In this document: positions 3,130 through 52,760 of the stretch, piece by piece
Position numbering within the stretch: position 1 is the first letter of the stretch
Layout of the letters: every line of letters starts with the position of its first letter
IMG/VR virus record: IMGVR_UViG_3300035688_000006
Coordinates: 1-54,471 of that record
DNA length: 54,471 nucleotides
Strand: one strand, 5' to 3'
Origin: a virus
Notes under the pieces: generated by a model
Databases searched by the model: none
Seen by the model: the letters and a program-made list of their open reading frames with translations, nothing else
What the model was told of the DNA's origin: nothing
Program-made: the position numbers and the translations under genes

Positions 3130-3675
3130 TTAAAAATCCTTATAAGTTGTGATAAAAGCATTTTTTATTTTTTTTATAGGAAATGAATAAAAATTTGACG
3201 ATCCGTGTTTTATATTTTGTTGTAATTTCCCGAATTTTTCCAGCCCCCCCGCTTTTTCGACGATGATTTTATATTTTACGATATCGATCAACGCCCATTT
3301 AAAAAAATTCTCCTCCTTCTCATCCGCCCAACCATAAAAATAAATTTGTGCACCTAAAGAAAACCATTCTCCCGGATTCTCATATATAGTTCCGACTGCA
3401 TTAAAATATTCCTGCGTAAAATCTGCACCGAATGTCTTATAATAATAATAGGTTCTATATTTTTCCTGGATACTTATCCATTGACGACTCTTTAAATTTA
3501 TGAGACTGTCGATTCCAAACTCTTTGTCTAAGATATGGACCCTAACGCCCCGTTCTCTCAAATCTTTTAATTCGCAATCCGGGAATATCTTAGAATAAAT
3601 CTTTAAAGCAGCGGGTTTCATTTTTATCCTGAATTTTTCAGTGTCAGGTAGCCAAATTTTACGGTTATTTCCCAT
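3130..3675 (-). CDS. Putative PD-(D/E)XK-type nuclease-like protein
   Basis: The 181-residue product contains a pattern recurrent in phage proteins thought to have a restriction-endonuclease fold: an LDKEFGID stretch (about 49-56), then a strand with IQEKYR (about 69-74), giving the spaced Asp and E-x-K residues of a PD-(D/E)XK site, then a GEWF segment and an aromatic-rich W-x-D region. The gene is AT-rich relative to most of the genome, like the adjacent methyltransferase which it overlaps by 11 bp. That pairing raises the possibility of a linked nuclease-methylase unit. Activity is inferred from motif spacing only. Confidence 0.5.
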   Translation of the reverse strand: MGNNRKIWLPDTEKFRIKMKPAALKIYSKIFPDCELKDLRERGVRVHILDKEFGIDSLINLKSRQWISIQEKYRTYYYYKTFGADFTQEYFNAVGTIYENPGEWFSLGAQIYFYGWADEKEENFFKWALIDIVKYKIIVEKAGGLEKFGKLQQNIKHGSSNFYSFPIKKIKNAFITTYKDF

Positions 3676-4807
3676 AACAGGCTATTCTTTTTTGAGCTAA
3701 TTTTATATATTCAGGATCGATTTCAATTCCATGAAATCGCCTTTTTAATTGAATGACTGCGATTCCCGTAGTTCCCGATCCCATAAAAGGATCGGCAATT
3801 AATTCACCGGCTCTCGTTACTGCATTAACAAGCCACTTCATGACGGAGAGCGGCTTTTGGGTTGGATGCTGTTTTTGATCTACACCGTTAAAATTAGATT
3901 GGGGAACGGCGGCGACGTGGCAATCGAAATCATTCAATCCTTTTCCCCATTCCCCGCCTCCCAGATTAATCTCGCGATTGGAATCCATTTTCCTATAAAA
4001 AAAGATCGGTTCCCAGGTTTGTTTAAAACCGATTCTGCTTTGAGGGCTTTTATTGTTGGCGTAATGCCAAATGAGCAATTGCTGAAATTTATAGCCTTTT
4101 AAAGAATCATCGAACCAACGACGACCCTCCCAGAGATACCGTTGACTCCAGAAAATCAATATCGTCTCAGCTTTGCAAACTGACCATTCGGCCGCCCATT
4201 TTCTTGTAAAACTTTCAAGATCTTTAGGCTCCCATGATTCGTCTTTTATTCCATAGGGTGGATCGGTTATCAAACTAGCGCATTCGATGACGGATTGATT
4301 CGTAGTAATTTTATAATCTATTCCGGGACCGGCTTTAGCTAAAGCCGCTACTTCTTTCTCTTCATTTTTTAATTTCCGTATCTCTTTTAAAGCAGTTCTC
4401 AATATCGGCAAATTCTCCGTTTTTAAAGCTTCCTCTATGATCGATTTTATAATCTCCTGATATTCCGCCGCCCTCTGCGCATAGTGCGACGTTCTCTTGG
4501 ATATCCCGGGGGGGAGAATTGACGTGGTTCTATGCTGGGAACCACGTTCGGAATCAAATTTACTTTTGCTTTTATCAATCCCCCTCAGCAATTCCCCGAG
4601 CCTCACCCAAGCCCAAAGCAGACGCTCCGCCATTCGCTGCGCATCTTTTACGGCAGCGTCTCTGACGGCTCCCATTATATGAACTTTATCTATTGCCCGG
4701 AGTTGAGCTTTTTGCGCCTTTAATTTTTCGTCTCCTATTAAAATAAAATCTCTAATTTTGTCAATTGTAGCTGGCAAATCTTGCGGTCTCTTAATTATGC
4801 TTTTCAT
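3665..4807 (-). CDS. DNA N6-adenine/N4-cytosine methyltransferase with N-terminal DNA-binding region
   Basis: The C-terminal half of this 380-residue protein is an amino-methyltransferase of the beta arrangement. Catalytic motif IV TDPPYG (181-186) precedes the SAM-binding motif ADPFMGSGTTG (338-348), and a HPTQKP motif lies between. DPPY enzymes methylate exocyclic amines in DNA, usually adenine N6. The N-terminal 150 residues are helical and charged with a GISKRTSHYAQRA segment, like the DNA-binding leaders of phage methylases. It probably modifies phage DNA to evade restriction or to time expression. It overlaps the putative nuclease gene downstream. Upstream lies a promoter and a highly structured leader (4821-4964), so it appears to be separately controlled. 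Confidence 0.88.
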   Translation of the reverse strand: MKSIIKRPQDLPATIDKIRDFILIGDEKLKAQKAQLRAIDKVHIMGAVRDAAVKDAQRMAERLLWAWVRLGELLRGIDKSKSKFDSERGSQHRTTSILPPGISKRTSHYAQRAAEYQEIIKSIIEEALKTENLPILRTALKEIRKLKNEEKEVAALAKAGPGIDYKITTNQSVIECASLITDPPYGIKDESWEPKDLESFTRKWAAEWSVCKAETILIFWSQRYLWEGRRWFDDSLKGYKFQQLLIWHYANNKSPQSRIGFKQTWEPIFFYRKMDSNREINLGGGEWGKGLNDFDCHVAAVPQSNFNGVDQKQHPTQKPLSVMKWLVNAVTRAGELIADPFMGSGTTGIAVIQLKRRFHGIEIDPEYIKLAQKRIACYGK

Positions 4808-10181: not shown

Positions 10182-10415
10182 TCACTGGTCCAAGGCTTTG
10201 CGGACGGCCTCGATGCCGACGTCACGATCATTCATTAGGTCAAGAAAACACAAAACTATGTCCCTGATCTTTTCAAGCCGCTCGAGCTTCATGATGATTT
10301 CCTCAAGCGCGGCTATTTCCTCCGCCCACAAATTATCCTCCCTATACGTTAAGGACCTGGACGCATAGCCATTACAATCCTCGAGCCTTTTCTTCGCCCA
10401 ATCTATCGCCCTCAT
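10182..10415 (-). CDS. Hypothetical helical protein, 77 aa
   Basis: This is an all-helical protein with a leucine/glutamate-rich central stretch (about 30-60) that may form a coiled coil. It overlaps the stop of the gp3-like gene upstream by the ATGA arrangement, so it is likely co-translated with it. No motif is recognised. Confidence 0.55.
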   Translation of the reverse strand: MRAIDWAKKRLEDCNGYASRSLTYREDNLWAEEIAALEEIIMKLERLEKIRDIVLCFLDLMNDRDVGIEAVRKALDQ

Positions 10416-11443
10416 TTGAGCACCTTCCCCTTGAGCGCCTCATTCGCCACTATGAAATAATCTATGGCCGAGGACAATGCCATCTCCTTCATCGCGTCGA
10501 TCTGCTTTAACCGCGCTCCCATCTTGGGCCCGATTTTCCCGCCGGCCTTCTCGAACTTGGCCACGAGGTCCAGTAGGTCCAGGCGTCGCCTATCCAGACT
10601 GTCTGCCTGGGGCTTCTTCTCCTCCTCCGGCTCTTCGCCTTCGGGGACTTCGCCAGCCGGGGACTCGGCGCCCTCCTCGGCTGCTGGCTCGTCCGGGAAA
10701 AATAGCGGATCCCTGGTCTCGTCTGCTGGCGGCAACTCTGCGACCTTGTGGTCGGGAAGTCTGGCCGGGCCTCTCACGTCGTCCAGCGTCTTGTAGAACC
10801 GCGGGTCCAGGTCCAGCATCATGATAAAATGTTTGCCTTTATGCGTCTTCCCTTCGGAGATATGTTGGGTAGATTCTTCGCGGCGAGTCAGGATAAGTTT
10901 GACGGAAGAAACATCGACATTATGAACGATACAGTGCTCGAGAAGATCACGGCAGAACGAATTGATATTAACCAGCGAATTAAAACTACCGGTAGTGATC
11001 TGATAGACATTTAGGGAAGCGATCGAATTTATTCTGAATCGGAAGATCCCAATTTTTTTGCATTGGCCCGAGTCAAAATAGGCGCATGGACATTCCCGCT
11101 CTTCGAGCTTGCTCGTATCGTCATTTATGCGGACGGCGGTCTCTCCGTCGCCCTTGCAATAAAGACCGGAAGATCTATACATCTTAAGGAACTGGGGAAA
11201 AATGCGGTCAAGATAGAGATGGAAATCCTCCTTCTCGAATCGGGCGGATGGGAGGGAGATATGCAGGATATGGGTCTCCTCTCCGTAGATCTTCTTCAAC
11301 TCCGGCGCGTCACGTAGGATGAAATTATCACATTCCGAAGGATACTCCACGGCCTTTCCATTCACCATTTTTGTTTTTTTAATTCCTAAATGGATTTTTC
11401 CCGATCGAATCGGGCGATAAATTGACGTCACTCCTTTAATCAT
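10412..11443 (-). CDS. Recombination directionality factor-like protein (phiC31 gp3-type family)
   Basis: The 343-residue protein follows the pattern of the gp3-like family, often labelled hydrolase or metal-binding protein: an N-terminal RPIRSGKIHLGIK, a GLYCKGDG stretch with CPC and GQCKK cysteines (likely a zinc site), and the FNSLVNINSF and KLILTRREES segments. In phiC31 the relative controls integrase direction, yet no integrase is recognised here, so another role in replication or recombination is likely. The C-terminal 130 residues include an acidic Pro/Glu-rich linker and a helical tail. It lies directly downstream of the Cas4-like nuclease, suggesting a shared DNA-processing pathway. 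The ribosome site is GGAG. Confidence 0.65.
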   Translation of the reverse strand: MIKGVTSIYRPIRSGKIHLGIKKTKMVNGKAVEYPSECDNFILRDAPELKKIYGEETHILHISLPSARFEKEDFHLYLDRIFPQFLKMYRSSGLYCKGDGETAVRINDDTSKLEERECPCAYFDSGQCKKIGIFRFRINSIASLNVYQITTGSFNSLVNINSFCRDLLEHCIVHNVDVSSVKLILTRREESTQHISEGKTHKGKHFIMMLDLDPRFYKTLDDVRGPARLPDHKVAELPPADETRDPLFFPDEPAAEEGAESPAGEVPEGEEPEEEKKPQADSLDRRRLDLLDLVAKFEKAGGKIGPKMGARLKQIDAMKEMALSSAIDYFIVANEALKGKVLK

Positions 11444-35357: not shown

Positions 35358-35937
35358 CCGCTGCTCCCTGGATTAGATGATTTTCAGGACGTCCCCTACC
35401 TGCGACTGACTGCATCTTTGCCACCACGAGATCCAGCCACATGTGGTCTTTCGTCTTGCTATAACAACGGGCGATGAAACTGAAATCGCCTCCGAATCTC
35501 TGCCGCCCAAATTCGTGGATATATTTCCTCCAGATGTCCGTCCTGATAGCAAAGCAAAACGAAGCTATTTCCGTATAGAGAGGAGTCCTGCCCCAGCGTT
35601 CCGGACGCGGCAACGTCCCGAACCCAGCCGTTATTCCCTTAAAAAAGACGATCTCCGGAGTCCGACCCTCTATCTTCTTTTTGAATATCTCCACAAACCG
35701 CGGCTCGATTAGCTGGTCGTCGTCGTCCAGGACCATGACGTACTGCGCGTCGATGGATTTGATTTTCATAAAAGACTGATTCGCCAATAGCCCTCCATAT
35801 CCCGTCGGCGTCTTGTCGTCCCTGTGAATGATGTGGATGTAGTCCTCGTCCGTCTGGCTCTTGACCGACTCGATGCAGACCGCCAGCATCTTCGGCCGCT
35901 GCGGATGAACGCGGGTCACGAAGGCAATCGTTTTCAT
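35347..35937 (-). CDS. Family 2-type glycosyltransferase
   Basis: ATG 35937 lies in the stop of the upstream gene (ATGA); a longer frame through that gene is rejected. The 196-residue product starts KTIAFVTRVHPQRP and has QYVMVLDDDDQLIEPRF, the GT-A DXD site, and a GDFSFIARC segment. It is similar in build to the next gene but not identical, suggesting a sequential sugar chain assembled by distinct enzymes. Confidence 0.8.
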   Translation of the reverse strand: MKTIAFVTRVHPQRPKMLAVCIESVKSQTDEDYIHIIHRDDKTPTGYGGLLANQSFMKIKSIDAQYVMVLDDDDQLIEPRFVEIFKKKIEGRTPEIVFFKGITAGFGTLPRPERWGRTPLYTEIASFCFAIRTDIWRKYIHEFGRQRFGGDFSFIARCYSKTKDHMWLDLVVAKMQSVAGRGRPENHLIQGAADGR

Positions 35938-37445
35938 CGGTACTCCCACTGCTGTTCGATTTCCGGAAGGCCGCGCGCCGTCCGTATCGACCGCGTTCCT
36001 CGGGGAATGTGATGGATGTATTCTCTCAGCTCTCCCTTCCACGTGAACCCCTGGCCTGCCGAATGACCGAGGCCCACGAACTCTTTTAAAACCTTATTGG
36101 ACAGCCCCTTCTTGTAGATATCGAGCATCGTCAGAAAACACGGGGCCCCATGATGCACGTAGCGGTGATACTTTTTATAATTGCCGATGTCTATCAGTTG
36201 GAAATAAGGATGAAGATAAGGCATCCAGCCTTCGCTAACATGATGGGAGTGAGCTCCATAATTGTAGCCATCGAACCCTGTCTTTTCGATATACCCGACG
36301 CCGAACGTGTCCGGCTCCATCATGGCCAGCATGGCCTCCACCGGGGATTTCAGCATTTCGATATCCGAATCGAATACCAAGGCGTACCTCGTCCTGACTT
36401 TATCAAGCCCCATGCACAAGCCCCGGCCGTGCCCTATGTTATATCCCAGCGAAATGACGGTCGTCTTGTAAGAGGCGAGGCTCTTTACATAGGCGGCGCA
36501 TGGGTCGCCAGCGTCCGACCCGTCGATGATGATGATCGGCATGTCCGGATGGAACTTGCGAATCGAGTTATAGGCCCTCTCGATCAGCGCTTGCGAATTC
36601 CAGCACACTGAAACCCCTGTTATGGGAAGGACGTTGGGAAAATAGGATTTATAATTGTCCTCCGTCAGCTTCCCGTTCAGTATGTCCATGTAGACCCGGA
36701 AGTCTTTAGGCACCCACCGCTTGAGGATAGCCCTGTCTGAGCTGTCCACGGTTTTATAAAGCGTAGTCTTGTGACCCGCTCCGATCCCCGCGCGTCCGGG
36801 CAGCCCCTTCATCCCTAGATACAATGGCTTCTCCGTGTCGACGAAGAGATATCCAAGGCTCCCGGCTTTTTGCCATAACCGGGTGTCCAGGAATGGATTG
36901 CTACTCGCCTCGAGCAGCTCTTTAACTGTCGGGATGAACGAACTCTTGAACCCCGTTTCCGCAAGCGAAGCATGGGCCGTGTTCCCGATCTGCATGTAGC
37001 CGCCGGATACGATGTGATAATACTTGGCCCTCATGATTCCGACGACCCTATGCGCCTCCAACTGCCGGGACATTTCTTTGATGTAATCCGGGGCGTAATA
37101 CTCATCGTCCTCGATGATCACAACATTATCGCCCTGGATTAAGGGGAGCACAGCCCTCAGATTCAGGGCGAGCGTATGCTTCGGATCCTCCGGCTGCGGT
37201 TCTCTCCGTACATATTGCATGCCCCATGAAGGGATCATCGGCACCTTCCCGTCGTCCACTACGAGCCATTGGTCGGGAGGCCTTGTTTGGTTTCTCATCC
37301 ACTGCTGACAGAGAGCAAAGGCTAACGGCCTGTCCCCGGTCGGCGTGATAGCCGTGACCTTGGACCTGACCTTGGGCTTGGGCTTTTGGGGAGGCTTGGA
37401 TAAACCGTACTTTTTTACATTGTCCCGAAACCGACTGAGGGCCAT
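35934..37445 (-). CDS. Tandem two-domain glycosyltransferase
   Basis: This 503-residue protein carries two GT-A type domains. The N-terminal one (about 28-260) has VTAITPTGDRPLAF and VVIIEDDEYYAPDY; the C-terminal one (about 272-500) has PITGVSVCWNS, IIIIDGSDAG and YALVFDSDIEML. Both keep acidic DXD-like motifs, so both may be active. Two-domain enzymes often build a disaccharide repeat or act on protein. The C-terminal end has an extended basic tail. Confidence 0.8.
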   Translation of the reverse strand: MALSRFRDNVKKYGLSKPPQKPKPKVRSKVTAITPTGDRPLAFALCQQWMRNQTRPPDQWLVVDDGKVPMIPSWGMQYVRREPQPEDPKHTLALNLRAVLPLIQGDNVVIIEDDEYYAPDYIKEMSRQLEAHRVVGIMRAKYYHIVSGGYMQIGNTAHASLAETGFKSSFIPTVKELLEASSNPFLDTRLWQKAGSLGYLFVDTEKPLYLGMKGLPGRAGIGAGHKTTLYKTVDSSDRAILKRWVPKDFRVYMDILNGKLTEDNYKSYFPNVLPITGVSVCWNSQALIERAYNSIRKFHPDMPIIIIDGSDAGDPCAAYVKSLASYKTTVISLGYNIGHGRGLCMGLDKVRTRYALVFDSDIEMLKSPVEAMLAMMEPDTFGVGYIEKTGFDGYNYGAHSHHVSEGWMPYLHPYFQLIDIGNYKKYHRYVHHGAPCFLTMLDIYKKGLSNKVLKEFVGLGHSAGQGFTWKGELREYIHHIPRGTRSIRTARGLPEIEQQWEYR

Positions 37446-47352: not shown

Positions 47353-48981
47353 TCACTCTCCTTCTTCGATTTTATCTCTTGCCTCGGCCGCGGCCATCCG
47401 CGCTGCCTCCGCACTTGCTCGTCCCTTCTTCGCCTCGTCCAGAATCTTGTCTACCCTGGCTGCCAGTTCCTCGACCTGGGCGTCCCGGCCCTGGGTCATC
47501 CCTCCCACGCCGGCGTCGGACAAAGGCACATAGGCCGTGGAGATGTAGTACCTTTCCGCGTCTTCATCTTCGGGCGCCTCGACGTCCACCTCGTCCGCAA
47601 TCTGCTTCCTGTTCATGACTCCGACTCCGAAGAGTTGAACGCACCTGTTCGCGATTGCGTTGATATCCCGCAGGTCGACGTCGCCCCACCAAAATTCGAA
47701 CTTATCATTTTCGAGTCCCTTCTCGATAACCAAGGACGTGATGATCCTGGCCGTCACGAGCTTGAGCGGATTGACGCTGCTTTCGATGTAGACCCTCGTC
47801 GCTTCGGACGCTATATTCCCGCCCAGGCTGCCTTGCCTTGCAATGCCGATCCGATAGGGAGGCATCTTGAACGGGACCAGGACCTCGTCGATCAGCGATG
47901 CGTGATAGAGTTTGAAGTGGCCCTCTTTGATCTCGGTAACCAGGGGCTCCCACGTCACCTTGCCGCCTTCGGGAGGATTGACGACGATCGTCTTGTGGGC
48001 GTTCGCGCTGCCCTTGATATCGACGTCGATGAAGTCCGAAATGAGTTTGACGTTCTCCTCGTACCAGTCTCCCTCGACGATGACCATGGCCGCCGGCACC
48101 CCGTAGTTCTCGAAGAAGGCGAGGTTGTAATCCCTCGCCCCGATCATGGCCCTGACGCTTCCGACCGCCGGCAGGATGGGCGGCTGGCCATAGAACGAAC
48201 TCTGGGGATAATAGTTGACGAAGAAGATCAACTCGTTCGCTCTCTTATCTTCGGGCACGTTCTTCTCATCGCCCGTGTCCTGGTGGACGTCACCCTCGTA
48301 TCCGAACTTCTTGAACCACTTCTTGTCTATGCCCCGAATCTGGCAATATTTGTTGCGGTCTTTATGCACTCGTATCATGTGGGCGTGAACGTGGAATAGA
48401 GCGTCGATCTTGCCGTCCTGCCCGCGGGATACCTCGATGCCCATTTGGCCAACGGACTCGAAGTCTATGATCGCCCTCTTCCAGATCTCTTCGAACGTTT
48501 CGACGTCGTCATTCGGATTCCTGAAAAAATGAGACAGCCGCTTGAGCTCTGCGTCGTTTGGCCCAGGTGCTTTCGATGCCGCGGGAGCAGCCTCTACTTC
48601 GCCCTCCCCTGGAGTTGCCTCTGCTTCCTCCTCGGGCGCCGCTTCTACGTCCTCCTCCTCTTTCTCGGTGATGTCGTACCCCTGCCCCGTGACGTCCGTC
48701 GCGATCTGGCGGACACAAGCGTCGAAGTAGGAGCAGTTGTCCATGAGGAGCAGAATCGAAAGCATGTCGAACGGCGGGGGAGCCAGGTTGTTTTCGGTAA
48801 GATATAACTGCTCGATCGCGAGCTGCTTGCTCTTCTTGTTCGCGGCCTTCGTCTCTTTCTTGATCTCCGCCTTTCTTAACTGCTCCCAGGGGAATAGACC
48901 CCGGCTTGTGTAGACGTACCGGAATACTTTGCCCTTCCGCTTAACGGGAGGAGATGAAGACTCTTTGTTTTCGCTGCCCAT
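47353..48981 (-). CDS. Portal protein (PBSX type)
   Basis: ATG 48981 follows GGAGG. The 542-residue product has the DNCSYFDACVRQIATDVTGQGY motif region (read in two parts, about 79-100), a long acidic Pro/Glu-rich insert (near 108-140), then FHVHAHMIRVHKDRNKYCQ, NYYPQSSFYGQPPI and SLGGNIASEATRVY, the features of PBSX-family portals. The dodecameric portal is the vertex for packaging and neck assembly. It overlaps the terminase gene by 41 bp. Confidence 0.9.
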   Translation of the reverse strand: MGSENKESSSPPVKRKGKVFRYVYTSRGLFPWEQLRKAEIKKETKAANKKSKQLAIEQLYLTENNLAPPPFDMLSILLLMDNCSYFDACVRQIATDVTGQGYDITEKEEEDVEAAPEEEAEATPGEGEVEAAPAASKAPGPNDAELKRLSHFFRNPNDDVETFEEIWKRAIIDFESVGQMGIEVSRGQDGKIDALFHVHAHMIRVHKDRNKYCQIRGIDKKWFKKFGYEGDVHQDTGDEKNVPEDKRANELIFFVNYYPQSSFYGQPPILPAVGSVRAMIGARDYNLAFFENYGVPAAMVIVEGDWYEENVKLISDFIDVDIKGSANAHKTIVVNPPEGGKVTWEPLVTEIKEGHFKLYHASLIDEVLVPFKMPPYRIGIARQGSLGGNIASEATRVYIESSVNPLKLVTARIITSLVIEKGLENDKFEFWWGDVDLRDINAIANRCVQLFGVGVMNRKQIADEVDVEAPEDEDAERYYISTAYVPLSDAGVGGMTQGRDAQVEELAARVDKILDEAKKGRASAEAARMAAAEARDKIEEGE

Positions 48982-50464
48982 GATTCCCTCCAGCCTTAAC
49001 TTCGGACTCATTCACTACTGACCCTTCCGCCGGCCTTGGTTGGTCCGCCGGCACTTCTTTCTCCGGAACCTTCATGCCGCCGTGGATAACTTTTCCTCCG
49101 CGTCTCACCGGACCGAGTTTCCACATTACCCAGTAACGAGTTTCATCGAGGCTATGGTCTTTTTCCTTGACCGGCTTCCCTTTCCGCTCGAGATAATTAT
49201 TCACTTCCATGAGCCAATATTGACAACGTCGATTAACCCGGAATTTGGGCGGCCCCAGGACTGGGCGGAGGGCATTGCGGACGGCCCCGATGCCGATCTC
49301 AATATCATTATTCGCAGCATATAATTTTATTCCGGCCGCCGCCCATTCCTTTATCAGATCTGGACGGCTTGGATCGGCTACCCCCTCAGAAACATTCGGC
49401 CACCATGGCCGACTCCGGGCCTCCTCGATCAATCTTGTGTTCGTTGTGTTCGCGATATATATCTCATCGACCCTGATCCATCCGAGCGGCGTGAATTTCT
49501 GCCAGACGCCAAGCGAGAAAGGATTCGTCCCGCCCCAGTCGATCGAGATCACGGCCGGTAGATCGGGGCTGAAATCAGGCAGATCGAGCGGCGAATGGAT
49601 GGCTTCATCGAACTGTTCGCCATAAACGAGATCGGATCGCCCTACTTTATTGCAAAACCAATCGGTCTGAAGACTCATGAGCGACAGGTCCCTGAGTTTG
49701 CTTACGAAGTCGTGGATGGCATAATGGCCCTCGGCATTCTTCATCTGCAGGCCCGGACAGAAAGGTGTCAATTTGCATGTAGAACATGAGTAGTCCCGGC
49801 AACTTTCCGATGTCTCGAAAATACACCAATGATATATGGGGATCCCATGCTCCTTCGCGTTGGCCAGGGCCAAGTCCATCGCCCCGCCCACGCGGTGATT
49901 CGTGGATAGCCTTCCCAGGGAGCTTATGTGGCCATGTTTGCTCTGAGGCTGGGAAAGCGCCGCTATATAAACATCCTCCGGCATTTCGTCAACCTCATCC
50001 ATGATCAACTGGACCGGATGAGGACCGCGGGCCGAGCGAGTCGAGGCGGTGAGGACCGACACGCGGCTCTTATTTTTCCATTCCGTCAGCCTCCGCATGG
50101 GCTCGCCTGTGAGCCAGTCGTCCCGGAGCCCCGTCGAATCCCAGAAATCGCCCATTGCCTTATAGACCTTTTCGCTCTGCTCGAACGAACCGCCGAGGAT
50201 CGTCGTGTCATAGTCCGGGAGGAATCCACTTTTCACCCAGGTCACGAGCGCCGCTAGATAGCTCTTCCCGCCGGACCGGTTGGCCCAGACCACATAATCA
50301 TGGACCCGGCCGAGAAGGATATCCGTCACGAAATCCAGCGGGGCGCGGTGGTTGGGATTGCCGCAGTTAACGCGGCTGCTGATGCGCGGGCCGCGCAGCC
50401 ATTCTATAAGCGCCAAGACATCCGCCGCGGATTTTAGGCCATTACGCCTCAGGCCCTCGATCAT
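48941..50464 (-). CDS. Terminase large subunit
   Basis: The ATPase part has a Walker A-like WANRSGGKSYLAA (about 60-72 in the form starting at 50464) and Walker B VQLIMDEVDEMP. The C-terminal part begins with AVISIDWGGTNPFSLG, the nuclease domain with its metal-binding Asp, and DSDIE-like partners are expected later. It packages DNA through the portal and cuts concatemers. ATG 50464 minimises overlap with the small subunit; ATG 50578 is a longer option. A Cys-rich insert (CRDYSCSTCKLTPFC) lies between the two catalytic parts. Confidence 0.9.
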   Translation of the reverse strand: MIEGLRRNGLKSAADVLALIEWLRGPRISSRVNCGNPNHRAPLDFVTDILLGRVHDYVVWANRSGGKSYLAALVTWVKSGFLPDYDTTILGGSFEQSEKVYKAMGDFWDSTGLRDDWLTGEPMRRLTEWKNKSRVSVLTASTRSARGPHPVQLIMDEVDEMPEDVYIAALSQPQSKHGHISSLGRLSTNHRVGGAMDLALANAKEHGIPIYHWCIFETSESCRDYSCSTCKLTPFCPGLQMKNAEGHYAIHDFVSKLRDLSLMSLQTDWFCNKVGRSDLVYGEQFDEAIHSPLDLPDFSPDLPAVISIDWGGTNPFSLGVWQKFTPLGWIRVDEIYIANTTNTRLIEEARSRPWWPNVSEGVADPSRPDLIKEWAAAGIKLYAANNDIEIGIGAVRNALRPVLGPPKFRVNRRCQYWLMEVNNYLERKGKPVKEKDHSLDETRYWVMWKLGPVRRGGKVIHGGMKVPEKEVPADQPRPAEGSVVNESEVKAGGNHGQRKQRVFISSR

Positions 50465-50933
50465 CACCTTCTGAATCTTCCGGCTGTATGGGAAGCTCCA
50501 GAAGGCGTCGATGTCCGTCCCCGTTTCCATTGCGGAGGATGGCGACGAATTCCTTGACGCCTGTGATTCCATATTCATCCAAGAACTCCTTCAATTCCTG
50601 CATCGGGCCGATCTCCTCGATTATCGGTTGGCTGATTTTTCCCTCCGTCCTTTCGGCTATAAAGTTGACGGCCCAGGCCTCCCCGGCGATTGCGGCCCGC
50701 CATACGGATTTGATCAGCCACAACACCCTTTTCAGGTGCAGTGTCTTCTCCCCTATTTTGCCGGTTTCCATCTCCTCGCCTTCGGTAATCAGAAGGTCGC
50801 GGAGCGTCCTATTAAAAGTGAGAACTTTGTGACTGATCTGTCCGTTACGATTGATGCGAGGATCGCCCTTTTTGAAAGAGCCTGCTGTCGGAGGACGTTG
50901 AGCTGTATTACTGTCTATTTTCTCATTCATCAC
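50442..50933 (-). CDS. Terminase small subunit-like protein
   Basis: This 163-residue protein precedes the large subunit, as small subunits do, and has an N-terminal SFKKGDPRINRNGQ segment of the DUF5681-like type, a helical middle (KRVLWLIKSVWRAAIAGEAW), and an acidic C-terminus. It should recognise the packaging site and recruit the large subunit. The call depends on position and partial pattern. Confidence 0.6.
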   Translation of the reverse strand: MMNEKIDSNTAQRPPTAGSFKKGDPRINRNGQISHKVLTFNRTLRDLLITEGEEMETGKIGEKTLHLKRVLWLIKSVWRAAIAGEAWAVNFIAERTEGKISQPIIEEIGPMQELKEFLDEYGITGVKEFVAILRNGNGDGHRRLLELPIQPEDSEGDDRGPEA

Positions 50934-51014: not shown

Positions 51015-51043
51015 TTGACAGGAAATTCGCGGCGATTTATATT
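51015..51043 (+). promoter_or_regulatory. Plus-strand promoter of the DUF523/TudS-like gene
   Basis: TTGACA (51015-51020), 17 bp, TATATT (51038-51043) on the plus strand, with an AAAGGAG ribosome site and ATG at 51072 downstream. It faces the packaging genes on the other strand. The 50934-51071 gap otherwise shows nothing. Confidence 0.7.
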
Positions 51044-51071
51044 TTAAGTGCAAATAAAGAAAGGAGTTAAG

Positions 51072-51533
51072 ATGATTATCTATTGCAGTTCGTGTCTTCT
51101 CGGGAAGCAATGCCTCTGGCATGGTAATATTCTTAAATTCTCGGCAGGGGGAATCGCGATGATTGCTGCGGCTGGCCATATCTTCATCGATTCCTGCCCC
51201 GAGATACTTGGCGGTTTGTCTTGTCCTCGCCCCCCTTCTTATCGCAGGCCTAATCGCCCGGGCCTGCTCATCGCGGCCGGCAAGGACGTCACGCCGGCGT
51301 TCGAACTCGGGGCAAGGCGGGCGCTGGCATTTCTGCGCGAAGCGCGGCCGCGTCCAGAGCTCGCCCTCCTGTTGGCCAAAAGTCCCTCCTGCGATCCCGG
51401 CTTCGGGATATTTGGCCGCGAAGCGGCAAAATTTATCCACGCGATCGCCTGCAATCGCAAGGATGGCCTCTGGCTCGAGCAGGCCTTGAAATTCTTGCAT
51501 ATCCTTCCACCTCAACGATATTTATTCCAATAG
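51072..51533 (+). CDS. DUF523/TudS-like [Fe-S] thiouracil desulfidase-like protein
   Basis: Start ATG 51072 after AAGGAG. The 153-residue protein shows the DUF523 signature: CLLGKQC near the start (C8, C14), SCPEILGGLSCPRPPS (about 41-56), KDVTPAFELGARRAL (about 71-85) and SPSC (104-107). Characterised relatives (TudS) use a [4Fe-4S] cluster to remove sulfur from 2-thiouracil. It is one of only two convincing plus-strand genes, has its own promoter and converges with the ParB-PP-loop gene (22-bp overlap), as for a moron gene. Substrate in the phage is unknown; thio-modified RNA or DNA is a hypothesis. Confidence 0.75.
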   Translation: MIIYCSSCLLGKQCLWHGNILKFSAGGIAMIAAAGHIFIDSCPEILGGLSCPRPPSYRRPNRPGLLIAAGKDVTPAFELGARRALAFLREARPRPELALLLAKSPSCDPGFGIFGREAAKFIHAIACNRKDGLWLEQALKFLHILPPQRYLFQ

Positions 51534-52708
51534 TTATAAAAATAATCAATATTATTATCACCTGAATGGCGAGGAAATTTCAAGGTCATTGCCAAGATGC
51601 GCATTTCTTCCCAAAGCATTGGATAACATGTTTGGAGCGCTTCCCACTGAGGACTGGATTTACTTTTTCCTTGAAATGGACACATCCAACAAGCTGTTCT
51701 CTTAAATCCCCGAACATAACCAGGCCAAAGCAATCCCTCTGCTTTTTTTAATAATTCCTCATACTCATCCTTTGATGTTTTGAAATAGGGGGAATAACTT
51801 AATCCCTTCGAGGATAAATGTACCGATGATCTTCGGGTACGACTTATAATTTGATCGGGTCGCCCTCCCCTTATTTTCAAAACCTTGACCGGGTCCGTAT
51901 TATCTATCGTCTTCTCTATAACATCGTTTATGAACATATGTTGGCAATCTCGATATATGGGGTCTGGCCATTTCCCTTTCTGAATATAATGCGCTATGAT
52001 ATTTTCTGTCGCATGTAGTATACGGAGATTGAATCCTTGTGCCTTCGCCAGACGCAAAATATACGCTATTAAATCTGGAAATTCGGCCCCCGTTTCAACA
52101 AATAAAGCCTCAAATGATTTCCCAATAATTTCACAAGCTTTTTTAGTCCAATATAAGGCGAGAAGAGAATCTTTGCCGCCACTGAATTCAACAAAAATAT
52201 ATTCAAAATTCGCCAACCAGATAAGCTTATCTTCGGGTATTTGCGGAAGATCCGGAAGTTTAATTAAATTATCCAATTGATTTCCACCTGGTCCATATTG
52301 TTCAATTATATTTTTTAAATTTACCGCCTTTCCTAGATCGATCTTATAATCCTCAAGATTAATTTCTTCAAAATGCGGATATACCAGTTCGGCCAATTTA
52401 TCCTCGAGATATTCCCCCGCCCGATCATTGTCCGAGAGCGCGTATTTTATCTTTTCCGCTTTCGTCTCAGCCCTGACGACTGATATTTCAACATCTTTAT
52501 GGCCAAGTTCCAGAAGTGCCCTTATCCTCATATTCCCGCCGAGCGTTATGAATCCGCCGTTCTCCTCAACGCAGATGAGCGGCTTATAAATTCCGAGGTC
52601 CTGGATCTGCCGCTTCAGACGCCCAAAGTCGGCGGTCTTGATATTTCTGGGATTTTCCGCCCATGGCTTGACGAACTCAATTGAGACTTTCCGGATGTCC
52701 ATTCCCAT
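51512..52708 (-). CDS. ParB-like domain fused to DndC/PAPS reductase-like PP-loop protein
   Basis: Residues 1-130 form a ParB-like domain (NPRNIKTADFGRLKRQI, ITLGGNMRIRALLELGH). From about 165 on there is a PP-loop ATPase: FVEFSGGKDSLLALYW (SGGKDS 176-181), LFVETGAEFPDL, then FKRTACWMCPF with C340 and C343. Cysteines C255 and C361 could complete a Fe-S site, as in DndC and IbrA. DndC inserts sulfur into DNA backbones with partners that are absent here; IbrB/IbrA join ParB- and PAPS-reductase-like proteins as separate chains. The reaction here is unknown; nucleic-acid or cofactor thiolation is the natural hypothesis. Confidence 0.75.
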   Translation of the reverse strand: MGMDIRKVSIEFVKPWAENPRNIKTADFGRLKRQIQDLGIYKPLICVEENGGFITLGGNMRIRALLELGHKDVEISVVRAETKAEKIKYALSDNDRAGEYLEDKLAELVYPHFEEINLEDYKIDLGKAVNLKNIIEQYGPGGNQLDNLIKLPDLPQIPEDKLIWLANFEYIFVEFSGGKDSLLALYWTKKACEIIGKSFEALFVETGAEFPDLIAYILRLAKAQGFNLRILHATENIIAHYIQKGKWPDPIYRDCQHMFINDVIEKTIDNTDPVKVLKIRGGRPDQIISRTRRSSVHLSSKGLSYSPYFKTSKDEYEELLKKAEGLLWPGYVRGFKRTACWMCPFQGKSKSSPQWEALQTCYPMLWEEMRILAMTLKFPRHSGDNNIDYFYNYWNKYR

Positions 52709-52730
52709 CTTGGGCCTCTTCCCGGCTTCA

Positions 52731-52760
52731 ATAATGGGACAGAATGAGGATGGCTGTCAA
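52731..52760 (-). promoter_or_regulatory. Promoter of the ParB-PP-loop gene and late block
   Basis: TTGACA (52760-52755), 18 bp, CATTAT (52736-52731), start near 52724, 16 bases before the ATG. The 131-bp gap around it shows no other gene. Confidence 0.55.

Follow-up and report, generated by a model that had tools for sequence, protein, structure and literature searches.

A ParB-PP-loop fusion and a TudS-like desulfidase form a conserved viral gene pair with a possible role in DNA sulfur chemistry

What do two genes with features of sulfur chemistry do beside the packaging genes of a virus? The question is raised by the window analyzed here, a stretch of 54,471 nucleotides that is one whole IMG/VR virus record (IMGVR_UViG_3300035688_000006). 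The initial annotation reported a ParB-PP-loop fusion gene and a TudS-like (DUF523) gene meeting tail to tail next to the terminase, and proposed a compact phage module. Both genes are indeed present at the positions it gave, with overlapping 3' ends, and the large terminase subunit adjoins them (Table 1).

The virus is tailed, with recognized genes for terminase, portal, Mu-F, tape measure, head protease and a recombination directionality factor. The last of these is Gp3-like (10412-11443, minus strand; E 3.1e-23), which suggests a temperate virus. Also encoded is at least one further DNA-modifying enzyme, an N6/N4 DNA methyltransferase (3665-4807, minus strand; E 2.5e-31) with a non-ParB N-terminal half. 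A 503-aa protein encoded among the tail genes (35934-37445, minus strand) shows a weak GtrB-like O-antigen conversion match, and a family-2 glycosyltransferase is also present among the window ORFs.

Table 1. Window coordinates of the two genes, their motifs and signals, and the adjoining terminase genes.
Feature	Position	Strand	Basis or remark
Terminase large subunit (context)	48941-50578	-	PHROG terminase match; adjoins module
Small protein at small-terminase position (context)	50442-50933	-	Terminase block spans 48941..50933
Sigma-70-like promoter of TudS gene, TTGACA-17-TATATT	51015..51043	+	11/12 consensus
Shine-Dalgarno AAAGGAG, 5 nt before ATG 51072	51060..51066	+	Sequence read
TudS/DUF523-like desulfidase gene, 153 aa, ATG start	51072..51533	+	Pfam, structure match, fold
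Cys8 (TudS Cys10), cluster ligand by equivalence	51093..51095	+	Invariant among 29 viral TudS
Cys42-Pro-Glu44 (TudS Cys43/Glu45)	51195..51203	+	Cys42 and Glu44 29/29; roles from PMC10611767
Ser104-Pro-Ser-Cys107 (TudS Ser101/Ser103/Cys104)	51381..51392	+	Ser104 29/29, Cys107 28/29, Ser106 S/A/M
Tail-to-tail overlap of the convergent genes at their 3' ends, 22 bp	51512..51533		ORF coordinates
ParB/Srx-PP-loop fusion gene, 398 aa	51512..52708	-	Pfam ParB_N and PAPS_reduct; predicted structure; relatives
Cys340-x-x-Cys343 (ACWMCP), presumed second and third [4Fe-4S] ligands	51680..51691	-	Invariant 28/28
Cys255, presumed first [4Fe-4S] ligand	51944..51946	-	Invariant 28/28; place of RWC of SspD/DndC
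PP-loop SGGKDS, residues 176-181, ATP pyrophosphatase motif	52166..52183	-	S, G, G, D, S invariant in 28/28 relatives
ParB/Srx-like N-terminal domain, residues 3-125, GGNMRIRA nucleotide motif	52334..52702	-	Profile and fold
Promoter-like site before fusion gene, TTGACA-18-CATTAT	52731..52760	-	10/12; consensus match only

The fusion protein has Pfam matches to ParB_N (residues 4-93; E 2.6e-4, below the Pfam cut-off for the single sequence) and to PAPS_reduct (residues 170-343; E 1.4e-10). Phage ParB families are matched by all 16 fusion relatives scanned, and a 16-member profile matches ParB structures (E 2.6e-9). Full-length relatives are 31-57% identical. The AlphaFold model (pLDDT 87) has a disordered linker at residues 129-147, and its fold matches include CysH/APR sulfonucleotide reductases, the tRNA thiolases TtuA and NcsA, and ParB-nucleotide structures. 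The PP-loop fold, on which the initial annotation had staked its proposal beforehand, is present in this predicted structure. The ParB part matches ParB-CDP/CTP structures and sulfiredoxin, and Arg61 of the nucleotide motif occurs in 24 of 26 relatives. In one locus (L007, 8001-9134), a stop codon interrupts the gene between its ParB and PP-loop parts, leaving two in-frame ORFs, and the TudS gene is intact; this is either a split gene or a sequencing error. Close to the module, some viruses have an additional short gene for a ParB domain alone (L012, 5563-6162; L228, 1767-2438).

The same ParB domain was found on ParB-DPPY DNA methyltransferases (profile E down to 1e-40). In the Akkermansia phylum (289 genomes), the complete fusion occurs solely in an Akkermansia MAG, and elsewhere the domain is mostly on DPPY-type methyltransferases. 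Methyltransferases of this type also adjoin the module in three loci. The viral protein thus resembles the ParB-N6/N4 DNA methyltransferase fusions of phages in its N-terminal domain, but has a PP-loop where they have a methyltransferase. Judged by domain make-up, the PP-loop seems to occupy the position that a DNA methyltransferase has in those ParB proteins, and it is chiefly for this reason that we favor DNA as the substrate.

The PP-loop site had been described as DndC-like. The cysteine pattern agrees: the fusion has a lone cysteine followed by a CxxC pair (within ACWMCPF, residues 339-345), and the same arrangement is found in both DndC (RWC ... GCWVC) and SspD (RWC ... GCTFC). The scores, however, lie nearer SspD: a profile of the PP-loop half gives 62 bits for SspD, 50 for DndC and 14-27 for sulfonucleotide-reductase matches. 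PADLOC matches the fusion to SspD (E 1.9e-10) and BrxP (E 2.9e-4), and the DndC models of TIGR03183 and PADLOC gave no match at E<=1. The three cysteines, whose Fe-S-type geometry had also been predicted, are invariant and presumably bind a [4Fe-4S] cluster.

SspD and BrxP, DNA-acting proteins of the Ssp and type-4 BREX phosphorothioation systems, are the best-scoring named PP-loop relatives tested. Unlike them, the protein described here is fused to ParB and borne by a virus, and its partner is TudS instead of SspA. SspB/DUF4007, SspC/BrxC and PglZ are not among the Pfam families of the window. DndC shares the PP-loop and an association with DNA sulfur chemistry, and Dnd loci often include DndB of the ParB superfamily, but here the ParB part is fused and of the methyltransferase-associated type. 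DndA, DndD and DndE had not been recognized in the initial annotation, and the Pfam results bear this out. DndD and DndE are missing from the 25 families matched in 71 window ORFs (E<=1e-5), with distant forms of the two still possible; for the Dnd and Ssp partners alike, absence is by Pfam. The [4Fe-4S] tRNA thiolases TtuA, NcsA and TtcA have a PP-loop and a three-cysteine cluster with an open iron, as presumed for the fusion, but the fusion has a different cysteine order and no tRNA-binding parts. The analogy to IbrA/IbrB adds little, since no IbrA-type family (DUF3440) is matched in Pfam and the locus encodes one fused chain with no separate IbrB.

The second gene carries the TudS signature noted at the outset. 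The protein matches the 2-thiouracil desulfurase family (Pfam E 3.6e-15; 56.7 bits, cut-off 34.7) and, by sequence, the TudS crystal structure 6z92 (E 2.7e-10). Its model (pLDDT 92) aligns to 6z96 with a TM of 0.72, and no relative of the model was found in a viral structure library. The ATG at 51072 is probably the real start, since the GTG at 51048 precedes the Shine-Dalgarno sequence. The gene also has the plus-strand promoter of its own that had been proposed; 0.2 sites of this quality (11/12) are expected by chance in the window.

In TudS, the Cys/Glu/Ser set removes sulfur hydrolytically and leaves it bound to the open iron, as [4Fe-5S] (PMC10611767). The viral protein resembles this 4-thio-UMP desulfidase in fold, in the three cluster cysteines and in the equivalents of Glu45 and Ser101. 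It differs at the nucleotide-contact positions Arg17/Tyr18, which are Leu/Trp in the window protein (Arg and Tyr/Trp in most viral relatives), and in its link to a PP-loop gene. Viral TudS form one side of a fully supported branch (100/99) that separates them from 31 cellular DUF523 sequences, mainly from Planctomycetota. Most have the signature CR[YW]HG, whereas cellular DUF523 have [VC]R[YF]DG. RudS_vir of phage 1H12 is likewise a phage-carried TudS domain, but RudS includes DUF1722 and targets tRNA s4U. The window protein lacks DUF1722. RudS_vir lies near a holin, and no PP-loop gene is annotated nearby.

Single-sequence searches for further loci were too narrow, returning a near-identical contig or nothing. 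A first viral scan, seeded with the fusion and its distant counterpart from Methanoculleus virus Blf4, recovered full-length fusions in diverse contigs, with a TudS-like ORF directly beside nearly all of them, Blf4 included. The reverse scan from TudS gave 46 loci, most with an adjoining fusion; several of the exceptions are contig ends. A later scan of the whole viral collection with a fusion-only query (a 28-member alignment) gave 42 loci, 41 of them true fusions, and TudS is in the flank of 37 of the 41. A 38th fusion contig has TudS close to its opposite end; on a circular genome, the two genes would be about 5 kb apart. By our own count from the table of loci, about 28 of 31 distinct viruses have both genes; the true exceptions, with a fusion and no TudS, are L019, L022 (61.8 kb) and L252. 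Bacterial and archaeal MAG contigs with the fusion (Planctomycetota, Akkermansia, Methanosarcinales) have TudS in five of five cases. Recurrence in the MAG contigs and in the fusion-only scan rejects a local accident as the reason for the pairing. Co-occurrence, a check attached to the initial proposal, thus extends to nearly all related viruses. The compact phage module stands as an association of genes, and its sulfur role is what we infer, with DNA favored over tRNA and the nucleotide pool, the other targets named in the initial annotation.

Among 50,697 phage records, Blf4 (one virus, two accessions) is the sole fusion-type carrier found, and it has both genes. It is a cultured, lytic carrier with a complete genome. 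Its fusion protein QXM18622 (L004, 1242-2486) is annotated as 'DNA modification methylase', and the adjoining QXM18623, annotated as 'hypothetical', is TudS. We considered QXM18623 as a small terminase and rejected this on the same identification. TudS is missing from the six phage records in which a PP-loop gene stands alone.

The orientation of TudS relative to the fusion varies. Over 32 loci, it is convergent in 22, co-directional in nine and divergent in one, and it changed at least eight times on the TudS tree with the genes still adjacent. Distances between PP-loop domains correlate with those between TudS proteins (Mantel r 0.39, p 1e-4, 24 pairs), a value close to that for the ParB and PP-loop parts of the fusion (r 0.37). 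Because the genes were not separated by the many flips and their distances are correlated, the comparative data indicate that the linkage is selected and not merely old synteny. Terminase and portal genes usually come after the module, and belong to several unrelated families. Such tight linkage across viruses of archaea and bacteria points to a selected function in nucleic-acid sulfur chemistry.

Identified carriers are anaerobes or were sampled at probably anoxic sites. They include methanogens, Akkermansia and a Planctomycetota MAG from what we take to be a deep mine. Anaerobic carriers would suit oxygen-sensitive clusters.

Two contigs (L113 and L114, 7953-8408) encode a viral-type TudS without the fusion, in which the third cluster cysteine is lost (SPSNV), which resembles degeneration once the partner gene had gone. 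One Acinetobacter 'phage' record (L144) has a DUF523 match among catabolic genes, and looks like a bacterial sequence mislabeled as phage. DUF523 matches in phage records look, at least in part, like bacterial contamination; there is one annotated case and the others are unannotated. The fusion is absent from all three phage-labeled DUF523 records searched.

How could the two proteins work together? Sulfur for the known phosphorothioation systems comes from DndA/SspA or from housekeeping desulfurases (PMC12839542). A cysteine desulfurase (PF00266) is absent from the window and from 10 other module viruses, including the complete Blf4 genome; the control search was positive in 14 of 14 genomes. 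A sulfur-stripping, sulfur-handing TudS would fill this gap. In NcsA, an open-iron three-cysteine cluster delivers sulfide (PMC10067955). For L019 and L022, which have the fusion without TudS, host IscS or free sulfide may suffice.

The explanation that we prefer, with confidence a little short of even, is a conserved two-protein viral sulfur-transfer module, most likely modifying DNA. The ParB domain would bind nucleotide and/or DNA and, like that of the ParB-methyltransferases, recruit the enzyme to viral DNA. The PP-loop would spend ATP to activate a DNA oxygen, either a base carbonyl or the backbone phosphate. Sulfide on the open iron of the three-cysteine [4Fe-4S] cluster of the fusion would then replace the activated oxygen, as in TtuA/NcsA. 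TudS would strip sulfur from thio-pyrimidines, hold it as [4Fe-5S] and supply it in place of the cysteine desulfurase of Dnd/Ssp; alternatively, it may clear sulfur from products that are free or incorrect. The outcome would be viral DNA that carries sulfur marks, probably introduced at about the time of packaging, and is thereby hidden from host nucleases. Equivalents of DndD/DndE or SspB/SspC were not recognized, so strand access or nicking would be unexplained unless the ParB domain provides it. Also counting against this explanation are L019 and L022, with their fusions lacking a TudS partner, and the Leu/Trp pair at the nucleotide-contact positions of the window TudS.

The proposal in its full form is that viruses infecting anaerobic bacteria and archaea place sulfur in the DNA of their own genomes by way of the ParB-PP-loop/TudS pair, with the Fe-S desulfidase, rather than a cysteine desulfurase, providing or editing the sulfur. 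We advance it tentatively. If true, it would pair a sulfur-adding with a sulfur-removing enzyme, both with an open-iron [4Fe-4S] cluster. It could then also represent a previously undescribed kind of viral DNA hypermodification, a suggestion that we hold equally tentatively.

In the literature searched, which did not extend to subscription papers and preprints, no described system combines a ParB/PP-loop enzyme with a viral desulfidase beside packaging genes. Neither ParB-PP-loop fusions nor a link of DUF523 to phage PP-loop genes came up there. Virus-encoded DNA sulfuration was also not found there; DNA phosphorothioation is described as a host trait. The main text of a 2025 survey of ParB-fold fusions includes no PP-loop fusion (PMC12704722), and a reappraisal of phosphorothioation does not mention TudS or DUF523 (PMC10853773). 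Phage TudS-DUF1722 proteins are covered in the RudS paper (PMC11417400), and no discussion of the fusion/TudS pair was found in the searched passages of the Blf4 paper (PMC8540584).

The strongest competing explanation assigns opposite roles to the two proteins. The fusion would sulfurate DNA, and a separately timed TudS would take sulfur off thio-nucleotides or off DNA marked in error, for instance ahead of replication or during lysogeny, preventing sulfur misincorporation. Overall, we consider this account unlikely but in need of serious attention. The desulfidase catalytic residues are all kept, and the orphan TudS proteins lost a cluster cysteine as if useless without the fusion. Transcription of TudS from a separate promoter, in most loci opposite to that of the fusion, is more easily reconciled with an independently timed partner than with an operon-bound sulfur donor, which supports an eraser. 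To our knowledge, moreover, TudS acts only as a hydrolytic desulfidase of 4-thio-UMP, and this counts against a donor role. However, TudS lies in line behind the fusion in nine loci, and an eraser would leave the fusion without a virus-encoded sulfur source. TudS as sulfur donor is therefore slightly favored, and TudS as eraser or sanitizer is nearly as likely.

The pair might instead act on host tRNA, with the PP-loop protein thiolating, or TudS de-thiolating, positions such as s4U8 or U34 and so altering translation or near-UV sensing. RudS, a TudS-DUF1722 protein, de-thiolates tRNA s4U and has a version in phage 1H12 (PMC11417400), and the PP-loop fold matches the tRNA thiolases TtuA/NcsA. 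We regard this as improbable, because no RNA-binding domain was recognized (no THUMP, no DUF1722), the cysteine layout is that of SspD/DndC rather than CxxC-first as in NcsA, and the same ParB domain otherwise occurs on DNA methyltransferases. Also, no tRNA genes were found in the window.

Anti-defense genes are often located beside structural genes, which would fit a nucleotide-switched regulator or counter-defense system of the IbrA/IbrB or DndB kind. Here, the NTP-binding fusion would regulate or block host phosphorothioation or defenses, and TudS would remove host sulfur marks. DndB is ParB-like and regulates dnd (PMC12704722). This explanation is distinctly improbable: the catalytic PP-loop and cysteines are invariant, unlike in a pure regulator, TudS chemistry is on the C=S of thio-pyrimidines and not on P-S, and IbrA-type families are unmatched.

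Auxiliary sulfur metabolism, with the fusion as a CysH-type sulfonucleotide reductase and TudS salvaging sulfide from thiouracil, has in its favor the Pfam/PHROG name (PAPS reductase) and the top single fold match (CysH 6vpu), but is very improbable, and auxiliary cysH is ruled out as the identity of the fusion by its missing catalytic residues: the cysteine of ECGLH is absent from 28 of 28 relatives, the CC pair is reduced to a single cysteine, the profile is nearer SspD/DndC than CysH, and a ParB fusion beside the terminase would make no sense for such a role. Solo phage PP-loop genes annotated as 'PAPS reductase' were also identified at or adjoining DNA methyltransferase genes (L138, 1236-3870; L139, 1736-3792), which suggests that they too function in DNA modification rather than in sulfur metabolism.
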